A stretch of 64,000 nt of DNA from Oscillospiraceae bacterium. Lineage in GTDB: Bacteria > Bacillota > Clostridia > Oscillospirales > Ruminococcaceae. Where the stretch lies: assembly GCA_022787085.1 (NCBI GenBank), contig JALFVE010000033.1, positions 25,535 to 89,534 of the forward strand, written 5' to 3'. Position numbers and translations under genes: made by a program. The stretch's first letter is position 1. Each line of letters opens with the position of its first letter. This document shows positions 6,186-60,757 of the stretch, one piece after another. Under the pieces are notes generated by a model. That model saw only the letters and a list, made by a program, of their open reading frames with translations. It had not been told where the DNA came from and made no database searches.

Positions 6186-6196
6186 TCAAGTGGGCA

Positions 6197-7107: not shown

Positions 7108-7191
7108 ATAAATATATTGAGATTTCAGCAGTTCAGCTGACGGGGGAGAGGATCTTATAATGTTAATAAGCTGTAAAATTTTAAAAAGCCC

Positions 7192-7233
7192 TTGACAATC
7201 CCTTGTTAATGTTATACAATGTAAACGATAACA
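7192..7233 (+). promoter_or_regulatory. Proximal promoter with cre-like operator for alpha-xylosidase
   Basis: TTGACA (7192-7197), a 17-bp spacer and TACAAT (7215-7220) form a strong promoter. ATGTAAACGATAACA (7219-7233) matches the Gram-positive catabolite-response consensus WTGNAANCGNWNNCW at every defined position. It overlaps the -10 and start site, as expected for a repressing CcpA or other LacI-family protein. Confidence 0.75.
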
Positions 7234-7265
7234 TTTGACAATGATTTATATTTCCTTGTCAAATG
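7232..7265 (+). repeat. Perfect 10-bp inverted repeat at alpha-xylosidase transcript start
   Basis: CATTTGACAA (7232-7241) and TTGTCAAATG (7256-7265) are exact reverse complements separated by 14 bp, immediately after the cre-like site. It could be a regulator site or a 5' hairpin in the mRNA. Confidence 0.6.
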
Positions 7266-7338
7266 AAAATCACGGCACAGCCGATAAATAAAAAGTAAAA
7301 TAGCATACATATAATAAAATTCAAGGAGGACATCTATT

Positions 7339-24082: not shown

Positions 24083-26035
24083 ATGTCATCTATAGAAAAA
24101 ATGATGTTCGCAGATATAGCGGGCGTCGAATCCGACCTTGACGCTGTTCTTGACATCATCAGCTCCTGCGGCTGCTTCCACATGGAAAATGCGGCAGCCG
24201 TTCATGTAAGCGGAGCAAAGAATACCGCAAAGAGGGAAAATCCCTATACGGCACCTTTGAAAATGCTTGCGGAAATAGGTACGCTGACGGGAATAAAGCT
24301 TGAACGAGCGGATTCAAGCGAGATCAGGGACAGCGATGCAGAGAAGGTCCGAACGGATATCAGTTCCATACGAAACCGTGTCCAGAAGCTGAAAGCGGAG
24401 GTCAAGAAGGCGTCGGACAATATGAATGCCCATAACATGGCGCTGGAGCAGGTGCTTCACCTCAGCGGAGGAGAAGGTGTAGGGGCACTGAGCGTAGATA
24501 TCGAGCAGATATTTGCCTGCAAGCATATCAAGGTGCGTTTCGGACGGCTTCCCGTTGACAGCTATGAAAAGCTTTCCTTCTATGAGGACAGGAATTTCTA
24601 TTTCCTTGCCTATGGCAGAGATAAGGAATATACCTATGGCTTCTGCTTTGCCCCCGAATCGGAGTCGGAGGAGATAGACGGGATACTTGATTCGCTGTAT
24701 TTTGACAGGATAAGGCTTCCTGATTTCGTCCACGGAAGTGCGGAGGACGCAGCGGACTCTCTGAAGAAAAATGTGGAAGAAGATAAGGCAGAGCTTGAAA
24801 AACGGAAAAAAGCTCTGGCGGATTATATCGAGGAAAAGCGTGAGGTCCTGAATAAATACTTCACCAAGCTAAAAACCATGCATGACACCTTTGAGCTGCG
24901 TGAAAAGGTGATGATGATAAGGGATAAATTCTATATCGTGGGATTTGTTCCCGAGCGTGATTCTGAGCGGTTCAGGAAGTATTTCGAGGGGCTGAAAACC
25001 GTATCTCTGGTAATGAAGCCATGTTCTGAAAACGGCGAGATCGAGACGCCCGTAAAGCTTCGGAACAATAAATTTGCGGAGCCCTTCTCCATGTTTGTTG
25101 ACCTCTACGGACTTCCCGCCTATAACGATATAAACCCCACCAATTTTGTAGCCATAACCTACACGCTCCTTTTCGGAATAATGTTCGGCGATCTGGGGCA
25201 GGGGCTTGTAATAAGCCTGCTGGGACTGCTGCTTTGGAAATGGAAGAAAATGACGCTGGGCAGAATAATGGAGCGTCTGGGCATATCCAGTATGATATTC
25301 GGAACGCTGTACGGCAGCGTGTTCGGATATGAAGAGCTGCTTGACCCCATGTATGAAAGCATGGGAATAAGCTTTCTGCCCTTCAAAGCGATACACAGCA
25401 TAAATAACGTGCTGTATACGGCGATCGGCATAGGAATATTCATTATCATAATCTCCGTGATCGTCAATATGATAATGGGACTCAAGGATAAGGATTATAC
25501 AAGAGCGCTGTTTTCAAATAACGGACTTGCAGGACTTGTATTCTACTGTTCACTGCTGATGCTTCTCCTGGGCGGAATGTTGGGACTTAACGTGGGCGGA
25601 ACGGTATATGTTATCTGCCTCATCGTCCTGCCGCTGGTGATAATGTTCCTTAGAGAGCCTCTTGGCGACCTTGTAAAGGGAAAAGGCTTCCATATCCACG
25701 AAAGCCTCGGGGATTTTATCGCAGCAAACTTCTTTGAGTGCTTTGAATTTCTGCTGGGCTATGCCACAAATACGCTGTCCTTTGTCAGAGTAGGCGGCTT
25801 TGTGCTTTCCCATGCGGGAATGATGTCAGTGGTGCTTGCCCTTGCGGAGATGTCGGGGGGAATGTCACCCATTGTAATGATACTGGGAAATCTCTTTGTG
25901 ATCGCCCTTGAGGGACTTCTTGTGGGAATACAGGTACTGAGACTTGAGTTCTATGAGATGTTCTCCCGCTACTATACAGGCGGCGGCAAGGCGTTCAAGC
26001 CCGTCAGCATAAACTATGATGAAATAATAGAATAA
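24083..26035 (+). CDS. ntpI: V-type ATPase subunit I (a-like membrane subunit)
   Basis: A 650-residue subunit. The soluble N-terminal half (about 1-340) contains two coiled-coil arms. The C-terminal half has about seven or eight membrane helices. The segment FGIMFGDLGQGLVISLLGLLLW and the conserved FVRVGGFVLSHAGMM region near residue 570 hold the arginine that faces the rotor carboxylate. The protein forms the half-channels for the transported ion and binds the peripheral stalks. The AAAGGACGG ribosome site is 13 nt before the ATG, longer than usual. Confidence 0.93.
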   Translation: MSSIEKMMFADIAGVESDLDAVLDIISSCGCFHMENAAAVHVSGAKNTAKRENPYTAPLKMLAEIGTLTGIKLERADSSEIRDSDAEKVRTDISSIRNRVQKLKAEVKKASDNMNAHNMALEQVLHLSGGEGVGALSVDIEQIFACKHIKVRFGRLPVDSYEKLSFYEDRNFYFLAYGRDKEYTYGFCFAPESESEEIDGILDSLYFDRIRLPDFVHGSAEDAADSLKKNVEEDKAELEKRKKALADYIEEKREVLNKYFTKLKTMHDTFELREKVMMIRDKFYIVGFVPERDSERFRKYFEGLKTVSLVMKPCSENGEIETPVKLRNNKFAEPFSMFVDLYGLPAYNDINPTNFVAITYTLLFGIMFGDLGQGLVISLLGLLLWKWKKMTLGRIMERLGISSMIFGTLYGSVFGYEELLDPMYESMGISFLPFKAIHSINNVLYTAIGIGIFIIIISVIVNMIMGLKDKDYTRALFSNNGLAGLVFYCSLLMLLLGGMLGLNVGGTVYVICLIVLPLVIMFLREPLGDLVKGKGFHIHESLGDFIAANFFECFEFLLGYATNTLSFVRVGGFVLSHAGMMSVVLALAEMSGGMSPIVMILGNLFVIALEGLLVGIQVLRLEFYEMFSRYYTGGGKAFKPVSINYDEIIE

Positions 26036-26056
26036 AAAATTTTGGAGGAAATCAAT

Positions 26057-26482
26057 ATGTATATTTTCTTACTTCCCCTTGCAATTGTAGTTCTTCTTGC
26101 ACTCCCCGTAATTTCAAGAATCAAGCATTTCACCGACGGCACAAAATGCAAAAACGCCATCATCGGAAATATCTGTACATTTTTCGGAGTAATGCTCCTT
26201 GCAGTAATACTTCCAATGGGCAATTTCGTATCCGCAGAAGTAATAGAGGAAACAGCAGGCGTAATAAGCAGCGCAGGCATGGGCTATCTTTCAGCAGCAC
26301 TTGCAGTAGGACTTGGCTCCATCGGCTGCGGAATCGCCGTAGCCAATGCAGCGCCCGCAGCCATCGGCGCAGTAGCGGAGGAACCCTCCTGCTTCGGTAA
26401 AGCAATGATCTTCGTAGCACTTGGCGAGGGCGTTGCGCTTTACGGCTTCCTTATCGCATTCCTTATCATTCAGGCAGTCTGA
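26057..26482 (+). CDS. ntpK: V-type ATPase subunit K (membrane rotor, c-like)
   Basis: The 141-residue subunit starts at the ATG 8 nt after a GGAGG site (an in-frame TTG lies in that site). It has four hydrophobic helices. The C-terminal pair (about 75-141) is a typical Gly/Ala-rich c-subunit hairpin with the ion-binding Glu124 in VALGEGVALYG. The N-terminal pair lacks both the glycine-rich packing motif and a carboxylate. The ring therefore carries one ion site per four-helix subunit. I cannot decide H+ or Na+ use from this. Confidence 0.9.
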   Translation: MYIFLLPLAIVVLLALPVISRIKHFTDGTKCKNAIIGNICTFFGVMLLAVILPMGNFVSAEVIEETAGVISSAGMGYLSAALAVGLGSIGCGIAVANAAPAAIGAVAEEPSCFGKAMIFVALGEGVALYGFLIAFLIIQAV

Positions 26483-26503
26483 AACAGATCCGAGGAAAAG
26501 AAA

Positions 26504-26812
26504 ATGAAATTCTATCTTCTCAGCGACAATGTGGATACCGTCACAGGAATGAGGCTGGCAGGTATCGAAGGAGTAGTTGTGCATCGGGCGGAGGAGACCG
26601 AAAAGGCGCTTCTTGAAGCCATGGACAACAAGGACATTGCCGTAATACTTATGACAGAGAAGCTCATCGACCTCATTGAGGACAAGGTAAACGAGCTGAA
26701 GCTCAGCCGTCCGTCACCGCTGATATCGGAAATACCCGACAGACACGCTGCAGTAGACGTGACCGCCTCCATATCCCGATATGTGCAGGAGGCAATCGGA
26801 ATAAAGCTGTAA
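26504..26812 (+). CDS. ntpG: V-type ATPase subunit F
   Basis: A 102-residue Rossmann-like protein (MKFYLLSDNVDTVTGMRLAGIEGVV ... VILMTEKLIDLI) of normal subunit F length. It binds the central shaft subunit D. Its position between K and E fits the usual bacterial order. Confidence 0.92.
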   Translation: MKFYLLSDNVDTVTGMRLAGIEGVVVHRAEETEKALLEAMDNKDIAVILMTEKLIDLIEDKVNELKLSRPSPLISEIPDRHAAVDVTASISRYVQEAIGIKL

Positions 26813-26833
26813 ATACCCGAAAGGAATGATACT

Positions 26834-27424
26834 TTGGAAAAGGATAAGCTTGACCGTTTTTTCACAGCGGTAAATACTGCTGCGGATAAGCAGGTAAATG
26901 AAATTCTCTCCGAAGCGGAGCAGGAAAGGAACAGTATCCTTTCAGCAGCCAAGGAGTCAGCCGAGGAAGCGGGGCGCCGCTGTCTCAGCGATAATATGAA
27001 AATGACCTCGGGCAAGTATGTCCGAATGGTGTCAAAGGCGGAGCTTGAGATGAAAAAGGAAGTGCTTCTCTGCCGAGAAAAGCTTACAGCGGAGCTTTTC
27101 GAGAAGGTGCATGAAAAGCTTTCGGAATACAGAAAAACCTCCGAATACGAGGAAAAGCTCTGCGCAGCGATAAAAGAAGAAAGCGACCTTGAGGGAGCAA
27201 GAGTATATCTTTCCCCCGAGGATATGGAGCTTTCTGACGCAATAGCCGCCGCATCAAAGAATAAGGTAACAGTAGCAGCGGACGAGTCCATAAAATACGG
27301 AGGATTATATATACTCCGACCCGAAAAGGGTACCGTCACGGACAGGACCTTTGACTGTACCCTGAAGGAGCAGGAGAGCCTGTTTGCTTCGGGAAATCTG
27401 ATGTCGGCACAGGAGGGCAGGTAA
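26834..27424 (+). CDS. ntpE: V-type ATPase subunit E (peripheral stalk)
   Basis: The 196-residue protein starts at a TTG 7 nt after AAAGGA. A long charged N-terminal coiled coil (about 1-90) is followed by a small globular domain with GLYILRPEKGTVTDRTFDCTL, typical of subunit E. It forms the peripheral stalk with the G/H subunit encoded at the operon start. Confidence 0.88.
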   Translation: MEKDKLDRFFTAVNTAADKQVNEILSEAEQERNSILSAAKESAEEAGRRCLSDNMKMTSGKYVRMVSKAELEMKKEVLLCREKLTAELFEKVHEKLSEYRKTSEYEEKLCAAIKEESDLEGARVYLSPEDMELSDAIAAASKNKVTVAADESIKYGGLYILRPEKGTVTDRTFDCTLKEQESLFASGNLMSAQEGR

Positions 27425-27426
27425 CA

Positions 27427-29196
27427 GTGAATACCGTATATTCAGTAAACGGACCTGTAGTAAAGGTACGGGACACCTCCGATTTTGCCATGATGGAAAT
27501 GGTGTATGTAGGCGCAAATCACCTGATGGGAGAGGTGATCGGAGTAAATTCCGAGGAGACGACTATTCAGGTATATGAGGTCACAACGGGAATGAAGCCG
27601 GGAGAGCCTGTTGTAGGAACGGGAGCCCCCGTTTCTGCAGTTCTGGGTCCCGGAATAATCTCAAATATCTTTGACGGGATCGAGCGTCCCCTCAAGAAGA
27701 TAGAGGAGCTTTCTGGAGCATATATCTCACCCGGTTCGAATATCGAAAGCCTTGATATAGAAAAGAAATGGAGCGTGACCCTCAAGGTAACTGTGGGGGA
27801 CGAAGTGCATGGTGGAGCAATATTTGCAGTCTGCCCCGAAACGCCCCTTATTGAGCATCGCTGCATGATACCCCCGAATATGAATGGCGAGGTAACATTT
27901 GCCGCCGAGAACGGGGAATATACCATAAATGACGTTATCTGCCGCATAAAAACGGCAGACGGCACCGAGCATGATCTTACAATGTGCCAGAAATGGCCAA
28001 TTAAGCAGTCACGCCCCTTTGAAAAAAGACTTATGGCAGACCGCCCCCTGATAACGGGACAGCGTGTTATCGATACAATACTGCCCATAGCCAAGGGCGG
28101 CACAGCAGCCGTTCCGGGAGGCTTTGGAACGGGCAAGACCATGACCCAGCATCAGCTTGCCAAGTGGTGCGACGCAGATATAATCGTCTATATCGGCTGC
28201 GGCGAGCGAGGAAACGAGATGACGCAGGTTCTGGAGGAATTTTCGGGACTTATCGACCCCAAGACCAACCGCCCCCTTACCGACAGAACGGTCCTTATCG
28301 CAAATACCTCCAATATGCCCGTAGCAGCCCGAGAGGCTTCAATTTACACAGGAATAACCATTGCCGAATATTATCGTGATATGGGCTATCATATTGCGAT
28401 AATGGCGGATTCCACTTCACGATGGGCAGAAGCGCTTCGTGAAATAAGCGGCAGACTTGAGGAAATGCCCGCCGAGGAAGGCTTCCCCGCATATCTGCCC
28501 TCAAGACTATCCGAGTTCTATGAGCGAGCAGGCTATGTGGAGAATTTAAACGGCAGCGAGGGCAGCGTCTCCATAATAGGAGCCGTATCCCCCCAGGGAT
28601 CGGACTTTTCCGAGCCTGTCACCCAGAATACAAAGCGATTTGTGCGCTGCTTCTGGGCGCTGGATAAATCCCTTGCCTATGCCCGCCACTATCCCGCCAT
28701 CAACTGGAATAACAGCTATTCGGAATATACCGAGGATCTCAGCGAGTATTATTATAAAAATGTGGATAAGGATTTTCTCACCTTCCGTCAGCGGATATCC
28801 TCACTGCTTATCGAGGAAAATAAGCTCATGGAAATAGTAAAGCTGATCGGCGCAGACGTCCTCCCCGACGACCAGAAGCTGATAATCGAGATCGCACGAG
28901 TTATCCGAGTGGGATTTTTGCAGCAGAATGCATATCATAAGGATGACACTTACGTTCCTCTTGATAAGCAGTTCAAAATGATGAGATCTATCCTGAAGCT
29001 TTATGACGAGTGCCGTGTCGCAGTGGAAAAGAGCGTTCCTATCAATCGTATAATATCCACGGGAATATTTGAAAAGGTCATAAAAATGAAATATGACATA
29101 CCCAACGATAAGCCTGAGCTTTTCCGCAGGCTTGATGTTGAGATAGAGCAGACTGTAAAGAAAGCAGTCAAAGCCTGCACCGAGGAGGGAAGATAA
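27427..29196 (+). CDS. ntpA: V-type ATPase catalytic subunit A
   Basis: A 589-residue catalytic subunit with a GTG start 2 bp after the subunit E stop. Walker A is in [18 protein letters not shown] near residue 230, followed by [11 protein letters not shown] with the catalytic Glu, and [13 protein letters not shown]. The V/A-specific non-homologous insertion lies near residues 110-200. The C-terminal helical domain is complete. It hydrolyses or makes ATP at the interface with subunit B. Confidence 0.97.
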
Positions 29197-30593
29197 TGGC
29201 TGTTCAGTATATCGGATTAAAGGAGATAAACGGCCCGCTTATCGCCCTTGACAACGTAACAGGCGTGTCCTATGACGAGGTAGCGGAAATAAGGCTGGAT
29301 GACGGCTCGGTAAGAACGGGCAGAGTAGTCCAGATCGACGGCAGCAGAGCGATTCTGCAGGTTTTCGAGGGAACAAAGGGACTCTCCCTCCGCAATACCC
29401 GAACCAAATTCACGGGAAAGCCCATGGAAATGCCTCTCTCCGAGGAGCTTCTGGGAAGAGTCCTCAGCGGCGCAGGCAGACCTATCGACGGACTTGGAGA
29501 GATATACGCAGAAAAATATGCGGATATCAACGGCAAGCCCTTAAATCCCGTCTCCCGCTCCTATCCCCGAAACTATATCAATACGGGAATATCTTCGATT
29601 GACGCCCTGACCACCCTTATCAGAGGGCAAAAGCTCCCGATTTTCTCAGGATCTGGACTTTCCCATAATAAGCTTGCGGTTCAGATAGTCCGTCAGGCGA
29701 AAATAGCCGAGGAAAGCGGACAGGATTTCGCAGTGGTATTTGCCGCAATGGGTGTTAAGAATGATATAGCCGACTATTTCAGAAAAAGCTTTGAGGAAAG
29801 CGGCGTTCTGCAGCGAGTAGTAATGTTTCTGAATCTATCAAACGACCCAATCATCGAGAGAATACTCACACCCAAGTGTGCCCTGACCGCCGCAGAATAT
29901 CTTGCCTTCGAGAAGAATATGCATATCCTGGTAATACTTACGGATATGACAAGCTATGCCGAGGCGCTCCGAGAGTTTTCATCATCAAAGGGAGAAATTC
30001 CCGCAAGAAAGGGCTTCCCGGGCTATCTCTATTCCGACCTTGCATCTCTTTACGAGAGAGCGGGAATCGTTGAAGGCTCAGAGGGCTCTGTAACCCAGAT
30101 ACCCATTCTCACCATGCCCAATGACGATATCACCCACCCCATACCCGACCTTACGGGATATATCACCGAGGGACAGATCGTTCTTGACAGAAGCCTTGAC
30201 CAGAACGGCATATATCCGCCCGTAGCAGTGCTTCCCAGCCTTTCACGACTGATGAAGGACGGAATCGGCGAGGGCTTTACAAGAGGAGATCATTCCGACT
30301 GTGCAAACCAGCTTTTTGCGGCATATGCCAAGGTGCAGGACGCAAGAGCGCTTGCGTCGGTAATAGGCGAGGAGGAGCTTTCACCGCTTGATAAAGCATA
30401 TCTCCGCTTCGGACAGCTATTTGAAAAGCATTTTGTAAATCAGGGCTTTGACGAAAACCGCAGCATAGATGAAACGCTGGATCTGGGCTGGGCACTATTG
30501 TCCACCCTTCCCCGTTCGGCGCTGGACAGAGTGGACGAAAAGCTGCTTGATAAGAAATACGACCCCGATAAGGCAGCGCAGTTTACGGATTAA
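29196..30593 (+). CDS. ntpB: V-type ATPase regulatory subunit B
   Basis: A 465-residue nucleotide-fold subunit whose P-loop is replaced by [12 protein letters not shown] near residue 150, as in all non-catalytic B subunits. [36 protein letters not shown] is the family signature. It overlaps the subunit A stop by one base and forms the alternating A3B3 head. Confidence 0.97.
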
Positions 30594-30607
30594 AGGAGTG
30601 AGGTCAG

Positions 30608-31294
30608 ATGGCAGATCAGGTATTTCCCACCAAAGGAAATCTTCTTAATGTAAAAAAATCCCTGATGCTTGCAAAGGTGGGCTACGAGCTGCTTGACCGC
30701 AAGAGGAATGTGCTTATCCGAGAGCTGATGATGATGGTAGACGCCGCAAAAGCACTCCGAGGCTCTATAACCGATACCTATAAGGACGCCTATGCCGCCC
30801 TGCAGCGAGCAAATATCACCATGGGACTGATAAGCAGAGTAGCCGAGGGGATGCCTGTGGAGGACAGCGTAAGCGTGACCTACCGCAGCGTAATGGGCTG
30901 TGAGCTTCCCAAGGTAAGCCTTGATGTGTCTGCAAATCACCTTACCTACGGCTTTGAGAATACCGATGGCAATGTAGATATGGCATATATCTGCTTCAAT
31001 CGGGTAAAGCAGATGACAGCAATGCTTGCTGAGGTGGATAACAGCGTTTTCCGTCTGGCAAACGCAATAAAAAAGACCCAGACCCGAGCAAACGCCTTGA
31101 AAAACATCGTTATCCCTCGGTATGAGTCAACCGTAAAATTCATAGAAAACAGCCTTGAGGAAAAGGAAAGGGAGGAATTCTCCCGCCAGAAGGTCATCAA
31201 GGCGCAGAAGGAGCGGCGAAAGCTCAGAGGAAGAGCGATTCCCACAGAGAAATTCACCGTCCCCGATGTTGAGCAATTTAAAAAAGGAAGCTGA
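30608..31294 (+). CDS. ntpD: V-type ATPase subunit D (central shaft)
   Basis: A 228-residue protein with two long helical segments at the ends, as in the rotor axle. The N-terminal FPTKGNLLNVKKSLMLAKVGYELLDRKR and the later KTQTRANALKNIVIPRYESTVKFIENSLEEKEREEF are classic subunit D motifs. It is the last gene of the operon and is followed by a strong terminator. Confidence 0.96.
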   Translation: MADQVFPTKGNLLNVKKSLMLAKVGYELLDRKRNVLIRELMMMVDAAKALRGSITDTYKDAYAALQRANITMGLISRVAEGMPVEDSVSVTYRSVMGCELPKVSLDVSANHLTYGFENTDGNVDMAYICFNRVKQMTAMLAEVDNSVFRLANAIKKTQTRANALKNIVIPRYESTVKFIENSLEEKEREEFSRQKVIKAQKERRKLRGRAIPTEKFTVPDVEQFKKGS

Positions 31295-31300: not shown

Positions 31301-31331
31301 AAAAACGGCAGGTTTATCCTGCCGCTTTTTA
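31301..31331. terminator. Bidirectional terminator at V-ATPase operon end
   Basis: AAAAACGGCAGG-N5-CCTGCCG followed by CTTTTT. It serves the V-ATPase operon and the convergent lipoprotein array. Confidence 0.9.
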
Positions 31332-31332: not shown

Positions 31333-32544
31333 TTACTCCACCACAAAAATCAGGATCCGATACTGCTTGTAATAATCAATATAGCTTATCTGCCCTTTAA
31401 AATTGAGCCTTTCAACGATCCTGTCAATATCCGAAATACCATCATCATCGGGCTTTATCAGATCGGATATAGTCTGCAAGCACAGATTAGAGGAATCGAG
31501 CTTGAGCATAAAATATTTCTCGCCCGTGTCAATGCACCATCTGCAGGAATCCTCAATAATCTGAAGAGCCTCATCATAATCATTGGCATATTTGCCCTCG
31601 TAAATGAAATAATTCATAGTCTCAGCCTCCGCACTGGGAGGAGAGCAGAAATAGTTGTTGATGCTTCTGTTGTTGGAGATAACAGCGTCATCGGTGAGGA
31701 AATACTGATAAAGGATCAGATCGGGATATTCCGCCCTGAGAGCCTCAGCAGGCTGATCCCAGCCGATATCAACATGATACCAGCTTCCCTCCAGCTTGAC
31801 CATGTTCCACATATGGTCAACGCTGGTATAGCCCGTAACTATCATATTTTCAATTCCGGCAAGGTTGCACAGATAAGAAAAAGCCTTTGCATAGCCCTCG
31901 CAAAGGGCTTTTTTGTTTACAAGAGCGCCGTAAACGGAGTCAACGAACTCTCCCTCCACAGTGCTTTCCACATTAAGCACCAGATAATCGTGAAAGAATT
32001 TGAGCTTTTCATAATCGGACATATCCTCATCCAGCTGAGAAATGATATCCAGTGCCGCCTGTTCGGCAGCCCTGAGCATTTCGTTAGCCTCTTCCAAGGT
32101 TGTTTTATAGGAGAAATTGACGGTATACGAATGAGCAGAAATATCGAAATCGCCCAGAGTCCTGTTTTCCAGATAAAAGAGCATAAGCTGTTCGCAGCGA
32201 ACGGATTCAAGCACCTTCACATAATCAGTCTCACTGATAGTCAGGGGCATATGGGCATAGCTGTCGAAGTTGATAATGGTGTTGACCACGCTGTCATAAA
32301 CGTCCTTCATGCGGTCATCGTAATCAAGCGAGGCGTATCTTGTGACCATTTTGTCGGGAATATAAAGCCCCGAATCGGAAAAATCCTCGGACAGTGAAGA
32401 ATTCTCTTCGGTAAGCTCCACGGTAGTGCCGTCAGAAATAACGGTGATACTCTCAGTTTCGGTGCAGCCTGAAAGAGCGGAAACGAGCATAAGAAGAGCC
32501 GCAGCAGCGCCGAATATTCTGTTTTTAGATCTGCTGCAAAGCAT
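31333..32544 (-). CDS. Transglutaminase-like lipoprotein 1
   Basis: A 403-residue protein with a lipoprotein signal (lipobox Ala-Leu-Ser-Gly, Cys27). After a short acidic linker comes a helical region and a transglutaminase/protease-like core. The putative triad is Cys215 in LCEGYAKAF, His244 in VDHMWN and Asp259 in WYHVDIGWD. A KLKFFHDYLVLN segment 25 residues before the Cys is shared with the paralogues. Bacterial members of this fold act as cysteine peptidases or amide cross-linkers; the substrate is unknown. It is the last of five tandem paralogues, 15 bp after the previous one, with GGAGG before the ATG. Confidence 0.83.
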   Translation of the reverse strand: MLCSRSKNRIFGAAAALLMLVSALSGCTETESITVISDGTTVELTEENSSLSEDFSDSGLYIPDKMVTRYASLDYDDRMKDVYDSVVNTIINFDSYAHMPLTISETDYVKVLESVRCEQLMLFYLENRTLGDFDISAHSYTVNFSYKTTLEEANEMLRAAEQAALDIISQLDEDMSDYEKLKFFHDYLVLNVESTVEGEFVDSVYGALVNKKALCEGYAKAFSYLCNLAGIENMIVTGYTSVDHMWNMVKLEGSWYHVDIGWDQPAEALRAEYPDLILYQYFLTDDAVISNNRSINNYFCSPPSAEAETMNYFIYEGKYANDYDEALQIIEDSCRWCIDTGEKYFMLKLDSSNLCLQTISDLIKPDDDGISDIDRIVERLNFKGQISYIDYYKQYRILIFVVE

Positions 32545-32559
32545 AGTATCCTCCGTAAA

Positions 32560-34212
32560 TCAGTCAAGATATTCCAGGAAAATTTTGACAGTTCTGGTAC
32601 TTTTGTTGCTGTTGTGGAAAATAGATTCGGTGTTGTAAAGATTTTTTGCGTCTTTTTTAACGCTGTCAAGGATACCGATAACATTATCGGCGGAATTTCC
32701 GAAGAAAAGGTCTGTGACCTCCTTGAAAACCTCGTCATCGCTGCACATGATCTGAATAGTGGAAGCCTTAGTTTCAGCAGCCTTGAGAGCCTCGGCAGTA
32801 ATAAGCTGTTTAGCCTCTGAAACGCTTGCCGCCACCAGATTATTGTAATAATAATACTGATACTTGGTGCCCGCAGCCTTTGGGATGTCGTAATCGTAAT
32901 CATCGAATTGTCTCAGTTCTCTGATTCGGTCATCGGTAAGCCCGAAATAATCATACCGGACGGAATCGGGAGATGCAGCCCTGTCGGGGTCGTCCCATGT
33001 TAGGTCAACGTGATAATAATCCCCGCCCATTTTAACAATATTCCACATATGAGGCTCATTTGCCACACCCAGAACGATAAAAGAGTCAATTCCCGCAAGG
33101 GAGCAGAGATAGGTGAAGCTCTGAGAATAGCCCTGACAAAGGGAATCCTTCTGAACGAGGGTGCCGTAAATATTGTTGGGATTTTCCGCCTTGTCGTTGT
33201 AGGTGCAGCTTGTGATGATATAGTCATGGAAGAGCTTGACAATATCGTAATCGCCCATCTCGGGAGTGATCATTGAAAGGATCTTATCAGTCTCAGCATC
33301 GATCTCCTCCTGCATGGAAGCGATCTTATCCTTAGAAAAGAGATATGTGAACTTCATGCTTCTGATATAGCCCGTCGTAGCGTCCGAAACATATTCAATT
33401 GTGGGGGAGATGTAGAAAAGCCTGTTTTCATCGTTGTAAATGAGCTGATAGATGTCGTAAAGCTGTTGAAAGGTGACTTTGTCATCGGAGGTAAAGGTGA
33501 TTTTGCTGTCGCAGTCAAACATTGCGCTGACAAGGCGGTCGTAAAGCCTGCGGTCACTCTGGCTGAGAGTGTAGTAGCTGTATGGATGGGAAATGATCTC
33601 CCTGCCTGTGTACTTGCTTTTTCTTCCGTCAGTGAGCTTAACGTGAAGATATGGGTCAGCAGCAATCTCCTCCGAAGTGGTGGAAATCTCTGATATTGCC
33701 GACGAGCTTTCCGCCGCAGAGGCAGTGACCGAGCCGTCAGTCTCGGAAACAACAGCAGTGACGGCAGAAGATGAAGTGTGGGATTCCTGCTGTGAAGCGG
33801 ACTGAGTGGGAGCCGCAGTTACCGAAGGAAGGGAAGGTGTGGTCTGAGTTTTTTCGTAATATTCGGAAATACCCACCGCAGGCACGTCCTCCAGAGCGAG
33901 GGAGCTGCTTGCAGTCATGGAAGTCTCGCTTTCAGAGGGAACAGTTTCGGTCTCAGTCTCAGTCTGGGAGGAGGTCTCGGGAACAGTGGTGACAGCCTCG
34001 GTTACAGTAGTTTTAGAGGTGGTGACAACAGTTTCCGGGGGAGTAGTTCTCTCGGAGGTGTCGTAAACGGTCATAACGCTTCCCGTGTCGGAATAGGTGG
34101 GGAGGGTATCCGCCCCATCGGGATATTCGATTTTATTGCCGCAGCCCGTAAGGATAACAACAGCAGCAGCAAAGGAAATAACTCTGAAAGAAAGTGAACT
34201 GTAGCTTTTCAT
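32560..34212 (-). CDS. Transglutaminase-like lipoprotein 2
   Basis: A 550-residue protein. Lipobox Leu-Thr-Gly-Cys near residue 24, then a very long Ser/Thr/Glu/Val linker (about 35-190), likely a spacer through the cell wall. The core carries Cys in LCQGYSQSFTYLC, His in EPHMWNIVK and Asp in YYHVDLTWDDP, spaced as in the other copies. The conserved helix before the Cys reads KLFHDYIITS. The C-terminal 120 residues, present in all paralogues, have no known motif. It lies 22 bp after paralogue 3. Confidence 0.83.
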   Translation of the reverse strand: MKSYSSLSFRVISFAAAVVILTGCGNKIEYPDGADTLPTYSDTGSVMTVYDTSERTTPPETVVTTSKTTVTEAVTTVPETSSQTETETETVPSESETSMTASSSLALEDVPAVGISEYYEKTQTTPSLPSVTAAPTQSASQQESHTSSSAVTAVVSETDGSVTASAAESSSAISEISTTSEEIAADPYLHVKLTDGRKSKYTGREIISHPYSYYTLSQSDRRLYDRLVSAMFDCDSKITFTSDDKVTFQQLYDIYQLIYNDENRLFYISPTIEYVSDATTGYIRSMKFTYLFSKDKIASMQEEIDAETDKILSMITPEMGDYDIVKLFHDYIITSCTYNDKAENPNNIYGTLVQKDSLCQGYSQSFTYLCSLAGIDSFIVLGVANEPHMWNIVKMGGDYYHVDLTWDDPDRAASPDSVRYDYFGLTDDRIRELRQFDDYDYDIPKAAGTKYQYYYYNNLVAASVSEAKQLITAEALKAAETKASTIQIMCSDDEVFKEVTDLFFGNSADNVIGILDSVKKDAKNLYNTESIFHNSNKSTRTVKIFLEYLD

Positions 34213-34234
34213 TGTAAATCGGCTCTCCGTAAGG

Positions 34235-35413
34235 TTACTGTAAAATCATGGAAATATGAATAATAAGCTCATCATCGTTAAGATAGCGGATATGTTTATC
34301 ACCGTTTACCTTAACATCAGAGCTGTTGTTGACATTCTGAAGGACCTTTTTGATCTCCTTGCCGTCCCAAAGGCGGTTAATAGCGGAAAGATAAGCTCTT
34401 TCATTGGAGAATCTGACAGCAGCGTCCTTTCTGCCCGATCGCAGAGCGTCCGCCGCAGCGATCTCCAGGAGCTTCACGCCCTCCTCGGCAGAATCTGCGA
34501 AATAGCCCTCCCGCTTGTAGTAATTTTCGGAGGAGATGCAGAGGGGATAAGAAAAATAATTATAGCTGTCAGGAAAATGTGTAACGCCGATGATGTCGGA
34601 ATCGGCAGTCAGGAAGTAGTAATATCTGATAAAATCCCGATCGGGAGGGGAGAGAATGGGGTCGTCCCAGGTGCAGTCCACATTATACCACATATCCTCC
34701 AGCCTGACCATGTTCCATGCATGAGCCTCGCCGTCGGGATTGGTGCCCGAGACAGTAAAGCAGTCGATGCCCGTCTTGCTGCAAAGGTAATCGAAGGCGA
34801 AGGCATAGCCCTCGCACTGAGCGAAGCCGTCGCAGAGAGAGCCATAGATAGTGTTTGCATATTTGGTGTCCATGGAGAAGGAGCAGTTCAGGACCAGATG
34901 ATCGTGAAAAGCCTTGAGCTTTTCGTAATCCGAGGCATTTTGGTCAATGCTGCTCAGGATTTCCTCAGTCTTGGCAGCGACAGCGCTTCTGAGGGGCTCA
35001 CATTCCTCTTTGCTGAATCGGTAGGTGAGCATAAGCGACTGAGAAGCCGCCGCAGGGCGATAAAACATACTTGACAGCCAGAAAATATCCTCCTCCTGGT
35101 AATAAACGGAAATATAAACCTTTCGGAGAGTATCGGGGTCCACCGCCTCGGGAAAAACGGCAGTGTCCTGAAAATCCATGGCAGCGTCACGGATAATGTC
35201 GTAATATTCCTGCTCCTTTGGGGAGAGAAGGCTGTAAATATACCTGCTGTTATCAAAGGAAACGTCCTCATTTGCAGACAGGCTGCTCCCGGGGATGGAG
35301 GGATCTCCCTCGGAAACGGGAGATTCCTCGACCCTTGAACAGCCTGCTGTAATGGAGAAAAAGGCAGCAGCAGCGCAAACAGCGCCTAAAAAGCGAAGCC
35401 TGTTCATGTCCAT
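34235..35413 (-). CDS. Transglutaminase-like lipoprotein 3
   Basis: A 392-residue protein. Its ATG overlaps the stop of paralogue 4 (TGATG), so they are translationally coupled. Lipobox Ile-Thr-Ala-Gly-Cys near residue 25, a short linker, then the shared helical region with KLKAFHDHLVLN. The putative triad is Cys in QCEGYAFAFDYLC, His in EAHAWNMV and Asp in WYNVDCTWDDP. All three residues are intact. The C-terminal extension is shared with the paralogues. Confidence 0.83.
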   Translation of the reverse strand: MDMNRLRFLGAVCAAAAFFSITAGCSRVEESPVSEGDPSIPGSSLSANEDVSFDNSRYIYSLLSPKEQEYYDIIRDAAMDFQDTAVFPEAVDPDTLRKVYISVYYQEEDIFWLSSMFYRPAAASQSLMLTYRFSKEECEPLRSAVAAKTEEILSSIDQNASDYEKLKAFHDHLVLNCSFSMDTKYANTIYGSLCDGFAQCEGYAFAFDYLCSKTGIDCFTVSGTNPDGEAHAWNMVRLEDMWYNVDCTWDDPILSPPDRDFIRYYYFLTADSDIIGVTHFPDSYNYFSYPLCISSENYYKREGYFADSAEEGVKLLEIAAADALRSGRKDAAVRFSNERAYLSAINRLWDGKEIKKVLQNVNNSSDVKVNGDKHIRYLNDDELIIHISMILQ

Positions 35414-36765
35414 CAATAGTTAAGATCGAGCTCGATAACGAGAGTGTTGGGGTCGCAGTTGGAAGCGACGGAGGAAACGGAGGAATTTTCATTTTTGATC
35501 CAGGAAGCGTATTCCTTGAGATTGCCGGTGATAGCGTCGTAAACGTCCTTGCTTGCCACACGGATCTCAACAGCTCTCATTTTGTTTGAAGCGTAGGACT
35601 TGAGCTTATCCTTGAGAGCGGATTCAGCGGAAGCCTTGTCGGAATAAAGCTCGCCTGAAACAGTGAAATAATTCATTTTAGTTGCAGTGCATTTCGGGGG
35701 ATCGAAATACTTTATCTGAGTACCGGAAATCTTGGTGTTAACGTTAAAATGGGACTTGTTGTGGATCCACTCATCGGGAACGAGGAAATATCTGTATCTG
35801 ACATTACTCTCGTCAACCTCTTTGAGGATGGGGTCGTCCCAAGTGCAGTCCAGATTATACCATTCGCCGTCAACCTTGACAACGTTCCATGCATGGGAAT
35901 CATTTGATTCATTGCTTCCCACAACCACAACGGATTCAATGCCTGCCAAATCGCAGAGATACTGCATGGTCTTGGCATAGCCCTCGCACTGGATCTCGCC
36001 CTTGACAAAGCCGCCGTAAATAGTCTGATTGAAGCCCTCTTCCTTAACGAAGTTGTTGTTAAGAGTAATGTAGTCATGAAAAACCTTCAGCTTGCCGAAG
36101 GTGTCCTTGCCGTCAGCCTTAGCGAGAACATCGGCAGCCTTTTTCTCGATCTCGGACTGCATGGAAGCGATAAGCTCGGGATCAACCTCCCAGTATCTGA
36201 GCTTGCCCTTTGTAACGCCCTTGGAAGCGAGCCAGAAGAGCTGAGGCTCCTGCATATAGAGGCAGCCGTAAACCTTGAGCCACATCTCGTCGGAAACGCT
36301 GTCATCAACCTTTACCTTGGTCCTAACGGACTTAGCAGCCTCGAGGATATCGGCATAAAGCGCCTTTTCCTGATCGTTAAGGGTATTGTAGCCGTAGCGG
36401 GTCTTGAAATCGACGTTATATTCGGTGATAACGGGAGCCTTTTCGGAAACGATGCCGCCCTCGATCATATTAACGATCTCATCGTGATTATCGGGAAGCG
36501 CAGCCTCGGTGTCAGTATTTTCGGAAACATCGGGGACGTCTTCATTGCCGCCGAAGTCAATGTTTGCACCGGGATCGAAAAATGCGGTGGTGTCCGAAAC
36601 GTCATTTGCAGAGGAGCCGTCCTCAGAAGGAGCCTCGGTGCCGTCCTGAATAATATTAATAGCAGTATCGGCGGGGGATTCGTCAACATTGTTTTTACCG
36701 CAGCCTGAAAATACGGAAGCGGCAATAAGCAGAGCAGCGCATACAGCGGATATTTTTTTCTTCAT
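35413..36765 (-). CDS. Transglutaminase-like lipoprotein 4
   Basis: The 450-residue protein starts at the ATG after GAAAGGAAAA; a longer frame upstream lacks a signal-peptide start. Lipobox Val-Phe-Ser-Gly-Cys, then an acidic Asp/Glu/Ser linker to about residue 110. The core has KLKVFHDYITLN, Cys in QCEGYAKTMQYLC, His in DSHAWNVVK and Asp in WYNLDCTWDDP. It is first of four closely packed paralogues and lies 150 bp after paralogue 5, where a separate promoter may exist, although I found no clear one. Confidence 0.83.
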   Translation of the reverse strand: MKKKISAVCAALLIAASVFSGCGKNNVDESPADTAINIIQDGTEAPSEDGSSANDVSDTTAFFDPGANIDFGGNEDVPDVSENTDTEAALPDNHDEIVNMIEGGIVSEKAPVITEYNVDFKTRYGYNTLNDQEKALYADILEAAKSVRTKVKVDDSVSDEMWLKVYGCLYMQEPQLFWLASKGVTKGKLRYWEVDPELIASMQSEIEKKAADVLAKADGKDTFGKLKVFHDYITLNNNFVKEEGFNQTIYGGFVKGEIQCEGYAKTMQYLCDLAGIESVVVVGSNESNDSHAWNVVKVDGEWYNLDCTWDDPILKEVDESNVRYRYFLVPDEWIHNKSHFNVNTKISGTQIKYFDPPKCTATKMNYFTVSGELYSDKASAESALKDKLKSYASNKMRAVEIRVASKDVYDAITGNLKEYASWIKNENSSVSSVASNCDPNTLVIELDLNY

Positions 36766-36915
36766 TTCTGTTTTCCTTTCTTTATTCTCGGTAAAATGGG
36801 ATATTATCGCATAGCGACATGAATAGACGGAAGCAGCAAAGTGGCAGGAATCCGCCCGCAAAGCCATGTATCGATAGCCCTGCGGGGGATGTCATTTTCT
36901 GCTGCGTCACAAAGA

Positions 36916-38631
36916 TCAATTATAAACGATATCGTAATGAACAACCTGAACGCCTGCGGTATAGGAGCCCTTCTTTTCGAGCTGCTTAACGGAGGAGGAC
37001 TTAGACTTAGCGTATTTCTGGAATGTCTTGAAATAATCGGTGCTTGTGAGAAGCTCGTAGTCAGCCTGAGAGGAAACACGGATCTGAGCAACGTTCCTGC
37101 CGTTGGCAATAGCGTCGTCAATAGCGGCATACATACCCTTTTCAGCGTCAGCAGCGTTGTCATAGAGCTTGCTGTAAGCGGCGAAATAGTTGCAGGCTTC
37201 CTTGGTGCAGGCAGGGGGATTATAGAGCTTGATGGAGCCTGACTTTCTGAGGAGGGTGCTTACATTGCAGTGAGTCTTGTTGTGGATCCATGCGTCGGGA
37301 ACGAGGAAGAACTCATACTGAGCATAGCTTGAGCCGAACTTGTTGATGGGGTCGCCCCATGTAGCATCAAGGTTGTAGTAGCCGTTCTCGCAGTAAACAA
37401 CGTTCCATGCATGAGAGCTGCCTTCCTTGTCTGAGCCTCTTACAACGCAGCATTCGATGCCTGCCATATCGCAGAGGTACTGGATAGTCTTTGCATAGCC
37501 TGCGCACTGAAGCTCGCCCTTAGCGGTAAAGCCGTTGTAAATAGTGCTGTTGTAGCCGGAGGAGGACATACTGAATTCGCTCTGTAAAACGATGGAATCG
37601 AAGAAAACCTTGAGCTTGGAAACAGTGCCGCTGTACTTGTTAGCCTTGCTGAGGATATTGTTTGCAGCGGTATCAATTTCCTTCTGCATGGATATAATCT
37701 CGTTTCTGTCGGAAGTTTTGTATGTAAGAGAGAGAGATCTGTTGTTGGGAGAGATGGAGGAATCCATCCAGAAGAGCTGAGGCTCGGAGTCGTAAACGAT
37801 GGTGTAAACCTTGATTACCTGATCGGAGGTAAGACCATCGGGAACATCAACCTTGCTGTCAAGCTTCCTGATAGCAGTCACAAGGTTGTCATAAAGCTTC
37901 TGCTCGGTAGAGGAAAGCTGCTTGTAAGCGTATCTTGAGGAGGTTTTGATGTTGTAATTGGGAGTTTCGATAGCAGCGCCGCCTGAGCTTCCTGTGCTGC
38001 TTGAGGAATCGGAATTGCTCTGATCTGCGGGATCCTTAAACTCGGTAGTATTTTCAGCAGCTTCAGCCGAAGTTTCGGGAGCAGCAGTGGTTTCGGGAGC
38101 GGAGGTTTCCTTAGCGGTAGTTTCTGCGGGCTTCTCGTCGGAAATATAATCCGAGTGGATAAATCCGCCTGCAGCAAGCTTGTAGTAGCCTGTATCGGTA
38201 AGTGCAGTGACCTCAACAGTGTCGCCGGGATAATACTGAGAAATAGGAGTAGCGCCGATGATAGCCTTTTCTCTTGAGTAGCACTTTTCGGTAATATACT
38301 TAGTACCCGAAAGCTCGGTCTCGGACCATTCGGAAGCAGTCTCGGAGGTCTCAGAGGATTCGGTCGCAGAGGTCTCGGAGGATTCGGGAACGGTAGTTTC
38401 TTCGGTTTCAGCGGTAGTTTCCTCAGTAACAGTGGTAGTTTCCTCTGTCAGAGAAGTAGTTTCCTCAGCGGTAGTCTCGGAAACGGTTTCGGAAGCAGTG
38501 GAAACGGTAGTTTCGATCTCAGGGATACCGCCTGTGCTCTCGCCTGTTTTCTCACAGGCAGAAGCCAGCATTGAAATAGACAGAATGCAGGCAATTGCAG
38601 CGGAAATTCGTTTACATTGTGTTGTCTTCAT
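36916..38631 (-). CDS. Transglutaminase-like lipoprotein 5 with SH3-like domain
   Basis: The 571-residue protein has its ATG at 38631 following AAAGGAG; an in-frame ATG 21 bp upstream is part of that site. Lipobox Leu-Ala-Ser-Ala-Cys, a Thr/Glu/Ser linker, then an SH3-like segment at about residues 105-165 (YYPGDTVEVTALTDTGYYKLAAGGFIHSDYI) of a kind that binds cell wall. A second linker precedes the core with KLKVFFDSIVLQ, Cys in QCAGYAKTIQYLC, His in SSHAWNVV and Asp in YYNLDATWGDP. It overlaps the upstream CBS-domain gene by 20 bp. Confidence 0.83.
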   Translation of the reverse strand: MKTTQCKRISAAIACILSISMLASACEKTGESTGGIPEIETTVSTASETVSETTAEETTSLTEETTTVTEETTAETEETTVPESSETSATESSETSETASEWSETELSGTKYITEKCYSREKAIIGATPISQYYPGDTVEVTALTDTGYYKLAAGGFIHSDYISDEKPAETTAKETSAPETTAAPETSAEAAENTTEFKDPADQSNSDSSSSTGSSGGAAIETPNYNIKTSSRYAYKQLSSTEQKLYDNLVTAIRKLDSKVDVPDGLTSDQVIKVYTIVYDSEPQLFWMDSSISPNNRSLSLTYKTSDRNEIISMQKEIDTAANNILSKANKYSGTVSKLKVFFDSIVLQSEFSMSSSGYNSTIYNGFTAKGELQCAGYAKTIQYLCDMAGIECCVVRGSDKEGSSHAWNVVYCENGYYNLDATWGDPINKFGSSYAQYEFFLVPDAWIHNKTHCNVSTLLRKSGSIKLYNPPACTKEACNYFAAYSKLYDNAADAEKGMYAAIDDAIANGRNVAQIRVSSQADYELLTSTDYFKTFQKYAKSKSSSVKQLEKKGSYTAGVQVVHYDIVYN

Positions 38632-39973
38632 CTTCAGATAACTCCTTTTCATTTTTTTTCTTGGATTTAACAGCTTTTATTCTGACGATCCTCATGTCCT
38701 CAGTAAGGAGAACGGTGAAGTCGATCCCCTTGTAGCTTACGGAGGGGGTCTCGCCGTCCTCGGGAATACGCCCGAGAAGGTCTGTGATAAAGCCGCTCAT
38801 AGTGTCATAGCGGCAGTCCTCGGGAAGCGGCTCATCCAGAGCCTCAAGAACGTCAGCGGGGTCGGCAGTGCCCTTGACGATAAAGGTATCATCGGATATT
38901 TTAGAGATATCCTCGGTCTCGTTGTCATATTCATCCTGAATGCTGCCCACGATGGATTCAACAAGGTCCTCCATGGTAACAAGACCCGCCGTGCCGCCGT
39001 ATTCATCCACAGCCACAGCGATCTGCTGTTTTTTCTCGGTGAACATCTTAAAAAGGTCGCCGCAGAGGCAGCTTTCGGGAACAAATTCAGCGTCTCTCAG
39101 GAAGCGGCTCACAGTAACGCCCTCGGAGGATTGAGTACCGATAAGGCAGAGCAGATCCTTGACATAAATCATGCCCTCGATGTGATCCACGCTGTCCTTA
39201 TAAACGGGGATACGGGAAAAGCCGCTTTTGATGGCAGTGTAGACCACCTCGGAAATGGGAGAATCGGCGCTCACCGCAACAATATCGGTGCGGTGGGTCA
39301 TAACATCGCTAACCGTAAGCTCATGGAACTCAAAAACGTTGTTTATCATTTCCTTTTCGGAGGATTCGATAACGCCTGTTTCGTTGCCCGCATCGACCAT
39401 CATAAGAATCTCTTCCTCGGTAACAGCGTCCTCATCGCCCCTGTTTCTGCCGAAAAGGGAGGAGACCGCCGCAGAAAGCTCGGTAACGGGGGACATGAGA
39501 TAATAAAGAAATCTTACAGCACCCGCAGAGGAAACTGCAAATTTCTCAGCAGTATCATCTCTCATAAGGATCCTCGGGAGATCGCTGCCCGCAAATCTGA
39601 GAATAAGCGCAGTGAGCAGGAAGGAAACGGCAATAATGAGCCAAGCAGCGGGCAGATTGCCGCCGACCGCCCCGATAATGAGCGGGGATACGAAGAAATA
39701 AGCGTAGATCGCCCCGATAAGCATGGAATTAAAAAGCTTGTGAACTGAAAAAACAGCAAAAAATCTTCCCTGATCTTTAAACAAACGGAAAAGGGTTTGT
39801 TTTCCGCCGTTTTCCTCTTCAAAGCCTTTGATCCGAGCCTCGCCCAGCTCATCGGCAGCAGCCTCTGCGCAGCCGTAGAACAGCCTTATGCCTGTAAGAA
39901 CAGCGCAGACAGCGATAGCGAATATCAGTCTTTTCTCGTCCGAAACAATAAACCGACTCCCGTCAGGTCCCAT
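38612..39973 (-). CDS. CNNM/CorC-like membrane protein with CBS domains
   Basis: A 453-residue protein. Residues about 10-160 contain three or four hydrophobic helices of a CNNM-type (DUF21) membrane domain. Two CBS domains follow (about 215-335; VMTHRTDIVAVSADSPISEVV and VDEYGGTAGLVTMEDLVESIVG). A CorC_HlyC C-terminal domain (about 345-430) precedes a Lys/Glu-rich tail. Relatives take part in Mg2+ and Co2+ efflux and were once annotated as hemolysins. It heads the transcript that leads into the transglutaminase-like array. Confidence 0.88.
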   Translation of the reverse strand: MGPDGSRFIVSDEKRLIFAIAVCAVLTGIRLFYGCAEAAADELGEARIKGFEEENGGKQTLFRLFKDQGRFFAVFSVHKLFNSMLIGAIYAYFFVSPLIIGAVGGNLPAAWLIIAVSFLLTALILRFAGSDLPRILMRDDTAEKFAVSSAGAVRFLYYLMSPVTELSAAVSSLFGRNRGDEDAVTEEEILMMVDAGNETGVIESSEKEMINNVFEFHELTVSDVMTHRTDIVAVSADSPISEVVYTAIKSGFSRIPVYKDSVDHIEGMIYVKDLLCLIGTQSSEGVTVSRFLRDAEFVPESCLCGDLFKMFTEKKQQIAVAVDEYGGTAGLVTMEDLVESIVGSIQDEYDNETEDISKISDDTFIVKGTADPADVLEALDEPLPEDCRYDTMSGFITDLLGRIPEDGETPSVSYKGIDFTVLLTEDMRIVRIKAVKSKKKNEKELSEDEDNTM

Positions 39974-40045: not shown

Positions 40046-40074
40046 ATTATACTACAAAAATCCCGCAATGTCAA
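40046..40074 (-). promoter_or_regulatory. Promoter of CBS protein and lipoprotein array
   Basis: On the minus strand, TTGACA (40074-40069), a 17-bp spacer and TATAAT (40051-40046), both consensus. The stretch 40075-40271 upstream is AT-rich, and I see nothing else in it. Confidence 0.88.
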
Positions 40075-40271: not shown

Positions 40272-40310
40272 CAATGCGCCGCATTTCAAAAAATGAAATA
40301 CAGCGCATTG
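40272..40310 (-). terminator. Terminator of Asn/Gln-rich small protein gene
   Basis: CAATGCGC...GCGCATTG with inner pairing of CATTTCA and TGAAATA forms a long hairpin. On the minus strand it is followed by TTTTTTGTTTTTG. Confidence 0.88.
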
Positions 40311-50643: not shown

Positions 50644-51277
50644 CGCTGTTTTTCATATCTTCTTCCCGCTCCTTCAATGAGAACACGCAGCCGCAGTAGT
50701 TCTGACGGTATATCCCGTATTCCCTTGAAAGCTCGGTGGAGCGTTTGTAGCCGTTCCTTTTCTTGAAATCCGAATAAAGATATTTCACTCCGTATTTTTC
50801 CGCAAGCTCTCCGCCGATCTCGTTAAGCTTTTGGGAGTTTTTCATGGGGCTGATCGAAAGGGTAGTGGTGAAATAATCCATGTCTTTTTCCTTGGCGGCA
50901 AGGGCTGTTTCCTCAAGGCGCAGGCGGTAGCAGGCAAAGCATCTCTCGCCGCCCTCTCTGATATGCTCAAGTCCCTTTACTGCTTTGTAAAAATCCTCGC
51001 TCATATGCTCGGTGCCTATGAATGAGATGGGATTTTCAGCGGGCAGCTCGTTTATAAACCGCTCCTGTTCGGCAAGACGCTTATAATATTCCTCGGGGGG
51101 ATAGATATTCGGATTATAATAAAAAACCGTTATTCTGAAATAACGGGAAAGGTATTCCAGAACATAGCTTGAACAGGGGGCACAGCAGCTGTGAAGCAGC
51201 AGAGCGGGGGTCTCGCCTGCTTTTTGGTGTTCGCTTATTATCCTGTCAAGCTCGTTCTGATAGTTGATTTTATTCAT
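50633..51277 (-). CDS. queH: Epoxyqueuosine reductase QueH
   Basis: A 214-residue QueH (DUF208) protein, which reduces epoxyqueuosine to queuosine in tRNA. The cluster-binding cysteines are visible as LLHSCCAPCSS near residue 28, CFACYRLRLEETA near 112, and YCGCVFS near 194. Its start overlaps the SGNH gene end by 8 bp. No other queuosine gene is in the window. Confidence 0.93.
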   Translation of the reverse strand: MNKINYQNELDRIISEHQKAGETPALLLHSCCAPCSSYVLEYLSRYFRITVFYYNPNIYPPEEYYKRLAEQERFINELPAENPISFIGTEHMSEDFYKAVKGLEHIREGGERCFACYRLRLEETALAAKEKDMDYFTTTLSISPMKNSQKLNEIGGELAEKYGVKYLYSDFKKRNGYKRSTELSREYGIYRQNYCGCVFSLKEREEDMKNSEKK

Positions 51278-57459: not shown

Positions 57460-57576
57460 ACGCCATATGGGAAATACCCTTTCGGCTTTTTTGAACTGCT
57501 TTCATATGATGACTTACGGGCTTGGGATTATGACGGTGACTGCTATGGCGGAGTTGGAGGGTTGTTGAATGGGTAA
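57460..57576 (+). pseudogene. Unidentified gene fragment overlapping hsdS start
   Basis: An open frame of 38 codons with no standard start ends at 57576, overlapping the hsdS ATG. It has a protein-like composition with Tyr-Asp-Asp-Leu-Arg-Ala-Trp-Asp-Tyr-Asp and a Gly-rich end. A second frame just upstream (57430-57495), beginning Met-Leu-Ala-Ala-Glu-Leu, could join it by one frameshift. This suggests the 3' end of a decayed gene. The parent family is not recognised. Confidence 0.35.
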
Positions 57577-60638: not shown

Positions 60639-60757
60639 ATTTTTTATGCAGATGTTTTCAGCTTGTATGACATTTATTAAGCAGGCAATACAAATCAGAA
60701 CTATCGGACACAGGCAGAAAAGAAATTTTGTATGTAATACTGAAAGGAAGGATAAAT

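Follow-up and report, generated by a model that had tools for sequence, protein, structure and literature searches.

A 64,000-nucleotide stretch of the genome of an Oscillospiraceae bacterium (GenBank assembly GCA_022787085.1, contig JALFVE010000033.1, positions 25,535 to 89,534; called here the window and numbered from its first letter) carries on its minus strand an array of five genes for predicted lipoproteins with a transglutaminase (TGase) fold. We designated them T1 to T5 in the order in which they are read: T1 (36916–38631, 571 aa), which also bears a predicted SH3 domain, T2 (35413–36765, 450 aa), T3 (34235–35413, 392 aa), T4 (32560–34212, 550 aa) and T5 (31333–32544, 403 aa). T1 and T2 were assigned from their open reading frames (ORFs), Pfam matches, alignment and structure prediction, and T3, T4 and T5 from Pfam matches and alignment with the family. 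Upstream lies a CNNM/CorC-family gene (38612–39973, minus strand, 453 aa), recognized by its Pfam CNNM, CBS and CorC_HlyC domains, which would be the first gene of the predicted operon. Its overlap with T1 is 20 nt, that of T2 with T3 is a single base (TGATG), and the gaps measure 150 bp between T1 and T2, 22 bp between T3 and T4 and 15 bp between T4 and T5. A first-pass annotation, made from the sequence alone, had described five leftward lipoprotein genes with a TGase-like core, four of them tightly packed, and both descriptions hold; it missed the CNNM-family gene, a constant partner, together with the age of the array and its spread over several genera.

Upstream of the CNNM gene, a promoter-like TTGACA-17-TATAAT site (40046–40074, minus strand) agrees with the sigma-70 consensus at 12/12 positions, a consensus match only, in a region in which 19 promoter-like sites were found against 11.5 expected. 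A sequence scan revealed a terminator-like hairpin of 17 pairs upstream of this site (40272–40310, minus strand); another lies between T5 and V-type ATPase genes (31306–31324, listed on the plus strand; the minus reading also runs into T). The consensus promoter-like site and the flanking hairpins point to CNNM-T1-T2-T3-T4-T5 being one predicted operon. The V/A-type ATPase genes beyond T5 (24083–31294) are convergent with the array; besides the window, only the closest relative (L037; L, G and g numbers are our handles for loci, genomes and genera) has them as neighbours among the 41 loci compared below.

Catalytic core and fold

We searched the ORFs as listed with the Transglut_core profile (PF01841; Pfam cut-off 23 bits), a check that the first-pass annotation had suggested. 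All five proteins exceeded the cut-off (24.1–47.4 bits, T1 just over it), and they make up 5 of the 11 Transglut_core matches in the genome. The Cys, His and Asp of the putative triad occupy the same alignment columns, in the same order, in all five, with 29–31 residues between Cys and His (T1 C376 H407 D422; T2 C260 H291 D306; T3 C200 H231 D246; T4 C359 H388 D403; T5 C215 H244 D259), as had been claimed. The helix KLK-FHDY, described as common to the set, survived in part: its K, F and D are invariant, but the exact motif is not shared (KLKVFFDS in T1, VKLFHDY in T4). Since T1–T4 are only 24–30% identical to T5, the array is not a recent duplication. Of 177 frames from array members and relatives, 4 partial ones were dropped, and the triad was present in 173/173 of the cores that remained, in agreement with the earlier statement that these are not decaying copies.

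The predicted structures of T1 and T2 match the TGase-fold enzyme TglA (PDB 9crn) over the whole module, from the N-terminal helices to the C-terminal domain, and align to it through the catalytic region; this applies to the models of T1 and T2 only. An SH3b-like fold was also predicted within the T1 tether (residues 102–168; 38128–38328, minus strand), which supports the SH3-like segment proposed earlier; Pfam gives no SH3 call for this segment in the window.

Lipid anchors and tethers

Secretion and lipid anchoring are predicted for T1–T5, each of which carries a lipobox Cys by sequence (ASAC in T1, FSGC in T2, TAGC in T3, LTGC in T4 and LSGC in T5). The strict lipobox rule holds for 148 of 173 relatives' frames, the rest being contig-cut, start-ambiguous or outside the rule. 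The tether amounts to 206 residues in T1 (SH3 domain included), 100 in T2 (36400–36699), 31 in T3 (35246–35338), 186 in the Ser/Thr/Glu-rich T4 segment (33583–34140) and 41 in T5 (32341–32463). The earlier description of Ser/Thr/Glu linkers of very different length is right for the lengths and for four tethers, in which these residues make up 42–52%, but not for the composition of the T2 tether, which is acidic and contains 25% of them.

Tether statistics were drawn from 18 complete arrays, among which related rows are not independent. The median lengths were 198.5 residues for T1 (SH3 included), 100.5 for T2, 28 for T3, 153 for T4 and 46 for T5; the rank T1>T4>T2>T5>T3 was found in 14/18 arrays, and position accounted for 82% of the variance in length, genome for 2%. 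Length follows position across genera, T4 excepted in 4/18, and the proposal of related surface cysteine enzymes on tethers of different length stands as a prediction. The coefficients of variation for T1 to T5 were 10, 15, 14, 46 and 25%. Tether and core identities between other genera and the window were, respectively, 46 and 47% for T1, 26 and 50% for T2, 25 and 41% for T3, 34 and 38% for T4 and 39 and 41% for T5, the tether values being inflated by low-complexity sequence. Length is thus better conserved than sequence for the T2 and T3 tethers only. Stretched out, the window tethers of T1 to T5 would span roughly 74, 36, 11, 67 and 15 nm; standard random-coil scaling gives relaxed dimensions of about 11, 7, 4, 11 and 4 nm, the T1 value ignoring the folded SH3.

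A GDSL-type lipase/esterase elsewhere in the window (51270–52526) has a Ser/Thr/Glu-rich tether that resembles the TGase tethers; holding surface enzymes in this way may therefore be more general in this organism.

Conservation of the array in relatives

Array members were found in 19 of 20 genomes of the genus, that of the window included; the remaining one (G018) has a completeness of 83%. In the family sample, a match at E 1e-30 was obtained in 124/247 genomes and 71/126 genera, mostly with one or two matches listed, at most 8 candidates being scored per genome. Adding 40 stretches picked for their arrays to the window gave 41 loci, with four- or five-gene arrays in nine genera (g1, g3, g22, g78, g90, g92, g111, g118 and g122). 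The survey that the first-pass annotation called for therefore finds the same ordered set in relatives, across genera and in independent assemblies. This recurrence is more than chance, and the array is ancient and common to several genera. The CNNM gene lies directly upstream of the array in 32/41 loci, and 8/41 are cut by the contig end on the CNNM side (L037, L040, L041, L046, L052, L054, L074 and L076). L073 holds a lone T1-like gene (4090–5328) and no CNNM in its stretch; the array of the same genome (G136), L072, retains its T1. Among the neighbours in 29 loci, TGase genes occurred in 29/29 and CNNM in 28/29 (L040 starts at T1), and each of the other families in at most 5.

We analysed the phylogeny of the cores with two trees. 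With FastTree, the 173 cores largely cluster by array position across genera. In a mixture-model tree of 79 rows, computed without two divergent T4 rows, T1, T3 and T5 each form a single group (98–100%); T1 and T2 group together (100%), T2 not being one group by itself. The four-gene arrays of g78 and g90 form a lineage of their own, in which the T1–T3/T4–T5 divide has two genes to either side, and L070 and L071 carry two T2-like genes each. The residues beside the active site also follow position (counts exclude L043, L070 and L071). Gln precedes the Cys in 28/29 T1, 28/28 T2 and 27/29 T3 rows and Leu in 25/25 T5 rows, T4 being mixed (Leu in 11/27); His is followed by Ala in 28, 28 and 25 rows of T1, T2 and T3 and by Met in 26/27 rows of T4 and 24/25 of T5. 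This pattern fits enzymes of putatively different specificity under selection to stay active.

We then examined 20 further stretches, three of which (L090, L091 and L092) hold additional copies from genomes that also have an array. In the other 17, a CNNM-family gene adjoins the TGase in 10 and was absent beside it in 7 (L080, L082, L083, L085, L086, L089 and L093). Seven loci with full flanks, all in other genera, consist of a single TGase and a CNNM (L077, L078, L079, L081, L084, L087 and L088); L094, L095 and L096 were not counted as singles, as the contig ends soon after the TGase and they could be cut arrays. The single-copy TGases of L078 and L088 are apparently anchored by a transmembrane helix rather than a lipid. 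On a simple view, the array expanded from a CNNM and single-TGase pair; the alternative is loss from an array, the trees being unrooted. L086 has two tandem TGase lipoproteins (6167–9110), the second with an SH3-like tether segment detected by eye, and no CNNM was found in the stretch; it gives a further example of SH3 combined with an enzyme of this kind. At class level, a TGase match at E 1e-35 was obtained in 145/391 genomes, and 29 of the matched loci, covered with flanks of about 1.5 kb (some contig-cut; two from the same family), showed no CNNM next to the TGase. Within that sample, the TGase-CNNM pair thus looks restricted to part of the family.

The CNNM-family partner

The genome encodes an ordinary CNNM (188 bits) and the array-linked one (69.6 bits). 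Among 24 chosen genomes, 21 had two CNNM matches, G124 had four, and G182 and G248 had one, their linked gene lacking the membrane domain. In a tree computed without the three linked rows that have no membrane columns, 39 linked CNNMs were separated from 25 ordinary ones by a branch with 99% support. We compared the Mg2+-site residues S21, S25, S/N71 and E111, in MtCorB numbering, as reported in PMC8242095; the same paper reports that Ser and Asn metal-site mutants moved more Mg2+ and that pi-helix Ser, Glu, Pro and Lys mutants moved less. At the positions equivalent to these four residues, the window CNNM has R, G, L and S, the S being followed immediately by an Asp. The Mg2+-coordinating pi-helix Glu is present in 25/25 ordinary CNNMs, and in array-linked ones the position is E in 6/32 and D in 15/32; 1/10 of those linked to a single TGase have the Glu. 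The first TM1 Ser is found in 23/25 ordinary, 1/32 array-linked and 1/10 single-TGase-linked CNNMs, and the TM2 Asn is retained in 1/32 array-linked ones.

For the CBS ATP contacts, residues equivalent to S234, R235, D316 and T207 are found in 42/42 linked CNNMs and that equivalent to T313 in 39/42, the other three having Ser; the T207-like Thr occurs in just 2/25 ordinary CNNMs of the same genomes. Conservation differs between the two parts of the protein: 31 array-linked proteins share 27% identity in the membrane domain and 59% in the cytoplasmic part, compared with 50% in both for 25 ordinary proteins. The membrane domain is absent altogether from the linked genes of L061 (11509–12369), L078 (5852–6682) and L088 (7207–8043), which encode the cytoplasmic part only (276–286 aa). 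These soluble CBS-CorC proteins are near the CorC chain 4hg0, presumably from E. coli, in size (292 aa). As judged from the residues, the array-linked CNNM is predicted to have lost Mg2+ transport and to have retained ATP binding. Because the ATP residues are kept, the cytoplasmic part is better conserved and membrane-less genes exist, the conserved part of the linked protein is cytoplasmic and is likely concerned with nucleotide sensing rather than transport.

Two further features lie elsewhere in the window. A gene for a type I restriction specificity subunit (Methylase_S, 57569–58663) adjoins a region in which G+C is low (38%), and inspection by eye of frames of at least 80 aa between 57200 and 64000 found no other restriction subunits; the region is perhaps a horizontally acquired remnant. 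A long open frame (60728–64000, more than 1091 aa) runs off the window and shows glycine-rich repeats and a signal-like start, perhaps encoding a repeat-built surface protein.

Discussion

The reading that we tentatively prefer, with somewhat less than even confidence, is that of a conserved six-gene cluster in which a CNNM whose predicted metal site is degraded precedes five different, predicted TglA-like cysteine enzymes, each tethered at its own set distance from the membrane and modifying the amide bonds of proteins at the surface or in the wall. It builds on the observed gene order, the kept catalytic residues, the position-specific lineages (weakly for T4), the position-linked tether lengths (T4 partly excepted) and the constant CNNM neighbour. 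By analogy with the family, the Cys would attack a side-chain carboxamide or a peptide bond and form a thioester, which would pass to an amine, giving a cross-link, or to water, giving cleavage or deamidation. Judging from tether lengths, T3 and T5 would work close to the membrane, T2 at a greater distance and T1 and T4 furthest out, with the SH3 domain holding T1. Through its ATP-binding CBS part, given the kept residues, the CNNM would likely tie the enzyme set to the ATP or Mg2+ state of the cell.

Several observations weigh against this reading. T1, T4 and T5 tethers diverge hardly faster than the cores between genera, so that a special hold on length is unsupported for those three, and the T4 tether has just 11–45 residues in 4/18 arrays. 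A Friedman test of the position effect (p = 5e-12) overstates it, because related genomes are not independent. Tethers can also coil, so their length gives the maximum reach and not the position. As for the lineages, the T4 clade has 22% support in the mixture-model tree, the g118 array (L072) has four genes and lacks T2, L043 lacks T4 and carries two T1-like genes, and the T4 copy of L042 lacks its C-terminal part (272 aa). One of the four dropped frames, which is T1-like and stands at the beginning of contig G016:C228, contains one in-frame stop, and single copies can therefore decay. Concerning the CNNM, array-linked proteins retain the TM1 Glu in 25/32 and the pi-helix Pro in 28/32, 15/32 have Asp for the Glu, and the alignment of their membrane domains rests on the 27% identity given above. 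Transport loss stays a prediction, since PMC8242095 reports more transport by the Ser and Asn mutants. Finally, the 0/29 count at class level implies that the enzyme type works without a CNNM elsewhere.

The enzymes may be LapG-like proteases that shorten surface adhesins or other lipoproteins, or set them free, instead of cross-linking them, a scheme that fits either account of the tethers and that we regard as a real, if doubtful, possibility. Ordinary gene-family expansion, in which the copies serve dosage or a variety of substrates and tether lengths are inherited from founders without any layering role, is also possible although we doubt it. Lengths would then simply be inherited among related genomes, T4 does tolerate very short tethers and truncation, the T1, T4 and T5 tethers diverge at nearly the pace of their cores, and Ser/Thr-rich tethers also occur on lipoproteins among single-copy relatives. 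It accounts less well for T2 and T3, whose tethers are about 25% identical between genera and yet vary only 14–15% in length, for the order of positions kept across genera, or for the residues beside the active site, which follow position. We can set aside with near certainty a chance or assembly artefact, by mis-assembly or decaying duplication: several arrays do stop at contig breaks, which repeats can cause, but the same order appears in independent assemblies, the triad is intact in every core compared, T1–T4 have no more than 24–30% identity to T5, and the relatives already contradict it.

Inside-out signalling, in which a membrane CNNM senses cytoplasmic ATP or Mg2+ and directly gates the extracellular TGases in the manner of LapD and LapG, would explain why the ATP-contact residues are kept in 42/42 linked CNNMs while the metal site decays, and why the CNNM is the constant partner of the operon. 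We consider it decidedly improbable: in L061, L078 and L088 the linked protein has no membrane domain and cannot touch an extracellular enzyme, so direct contact between CNNM and TGase is disfavoured. A bolder form of the preferred reading makes the former transporter a sensor of ATP state that runs graded enzymes on fixed-length tethers, the envelope being cross-linked or cut layer by layer with the energy of the cell, as a molecular ruler born of tandem duplication of a CNNM-TGase pair; we think this improbable as a whole.

Tethered surface enzymes that occur as a family are readily taken for loose paralogues. In this array, gene order, active-site neighbours and tether length (T4 apart) follow position across genera, which makes placement at set depths in a Gram-positive envelope testable. 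The linked CNNM, with its decayed metal site and kept nucleotide site, would offer a natural case for CBS/CorC roles besides Mg2+ movement. In the open-licence PMC literature, with most subscription papers outside this scope, we found no paper joining TGase-like proteins with CorC in an operon and none on a TGase-domain gene cluster in Ruminococcaceae.

Comparison with known systems

One of the closest known systems is TglA of Streptococcus pyogenes, whose whole-module fold the T1 and T2 models share and on which the open-licence PMC literature gave no paper; identity is about 20%, and the present system differs in its five tandem copies, long tethers and CNNM partner. All five proteins belong with PF01841 by score, and one homologue (P0095) is named 'transglutaminase/protease-like cytokinesis protein 3', a likeness in name only, which we take to be COG5279. 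The only NCBIfam match of all five is NF045980, the MAG6410 family of TGase-related lipoproteins (56.6–95.6 bits); its members are lipoproteins too, but the scores lie far under the 450-bit cut-off, so T1–T5 are not members. The MAG6410 name is presumably of Mycoplasma origin. The linked gene has the same CNNM-CBS-CorC_HlyC domains as the CNNM/CorB/CorC Mg2+ transporters and keeps their CBS ATP residues; it differs in that the Mg2+-site residues are mostly replaced, in lying on its own side of the tree (99%) and in the three genes without a membrane domain. Its best NCBIfam match is GldE of Bacteroidota (TIGR03520; 211 bits, under the cut-off of 376), a member of the CNNM family whose gene neighbours that of the lipoprotein GldD. 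In the LapD/LapG system, LapD gates LapG, so that cytoplasmic nucleotide sensing is joined with an extracytoplasmic TGase-fold enzyme, and the cluster described here resembles it by analogy only.

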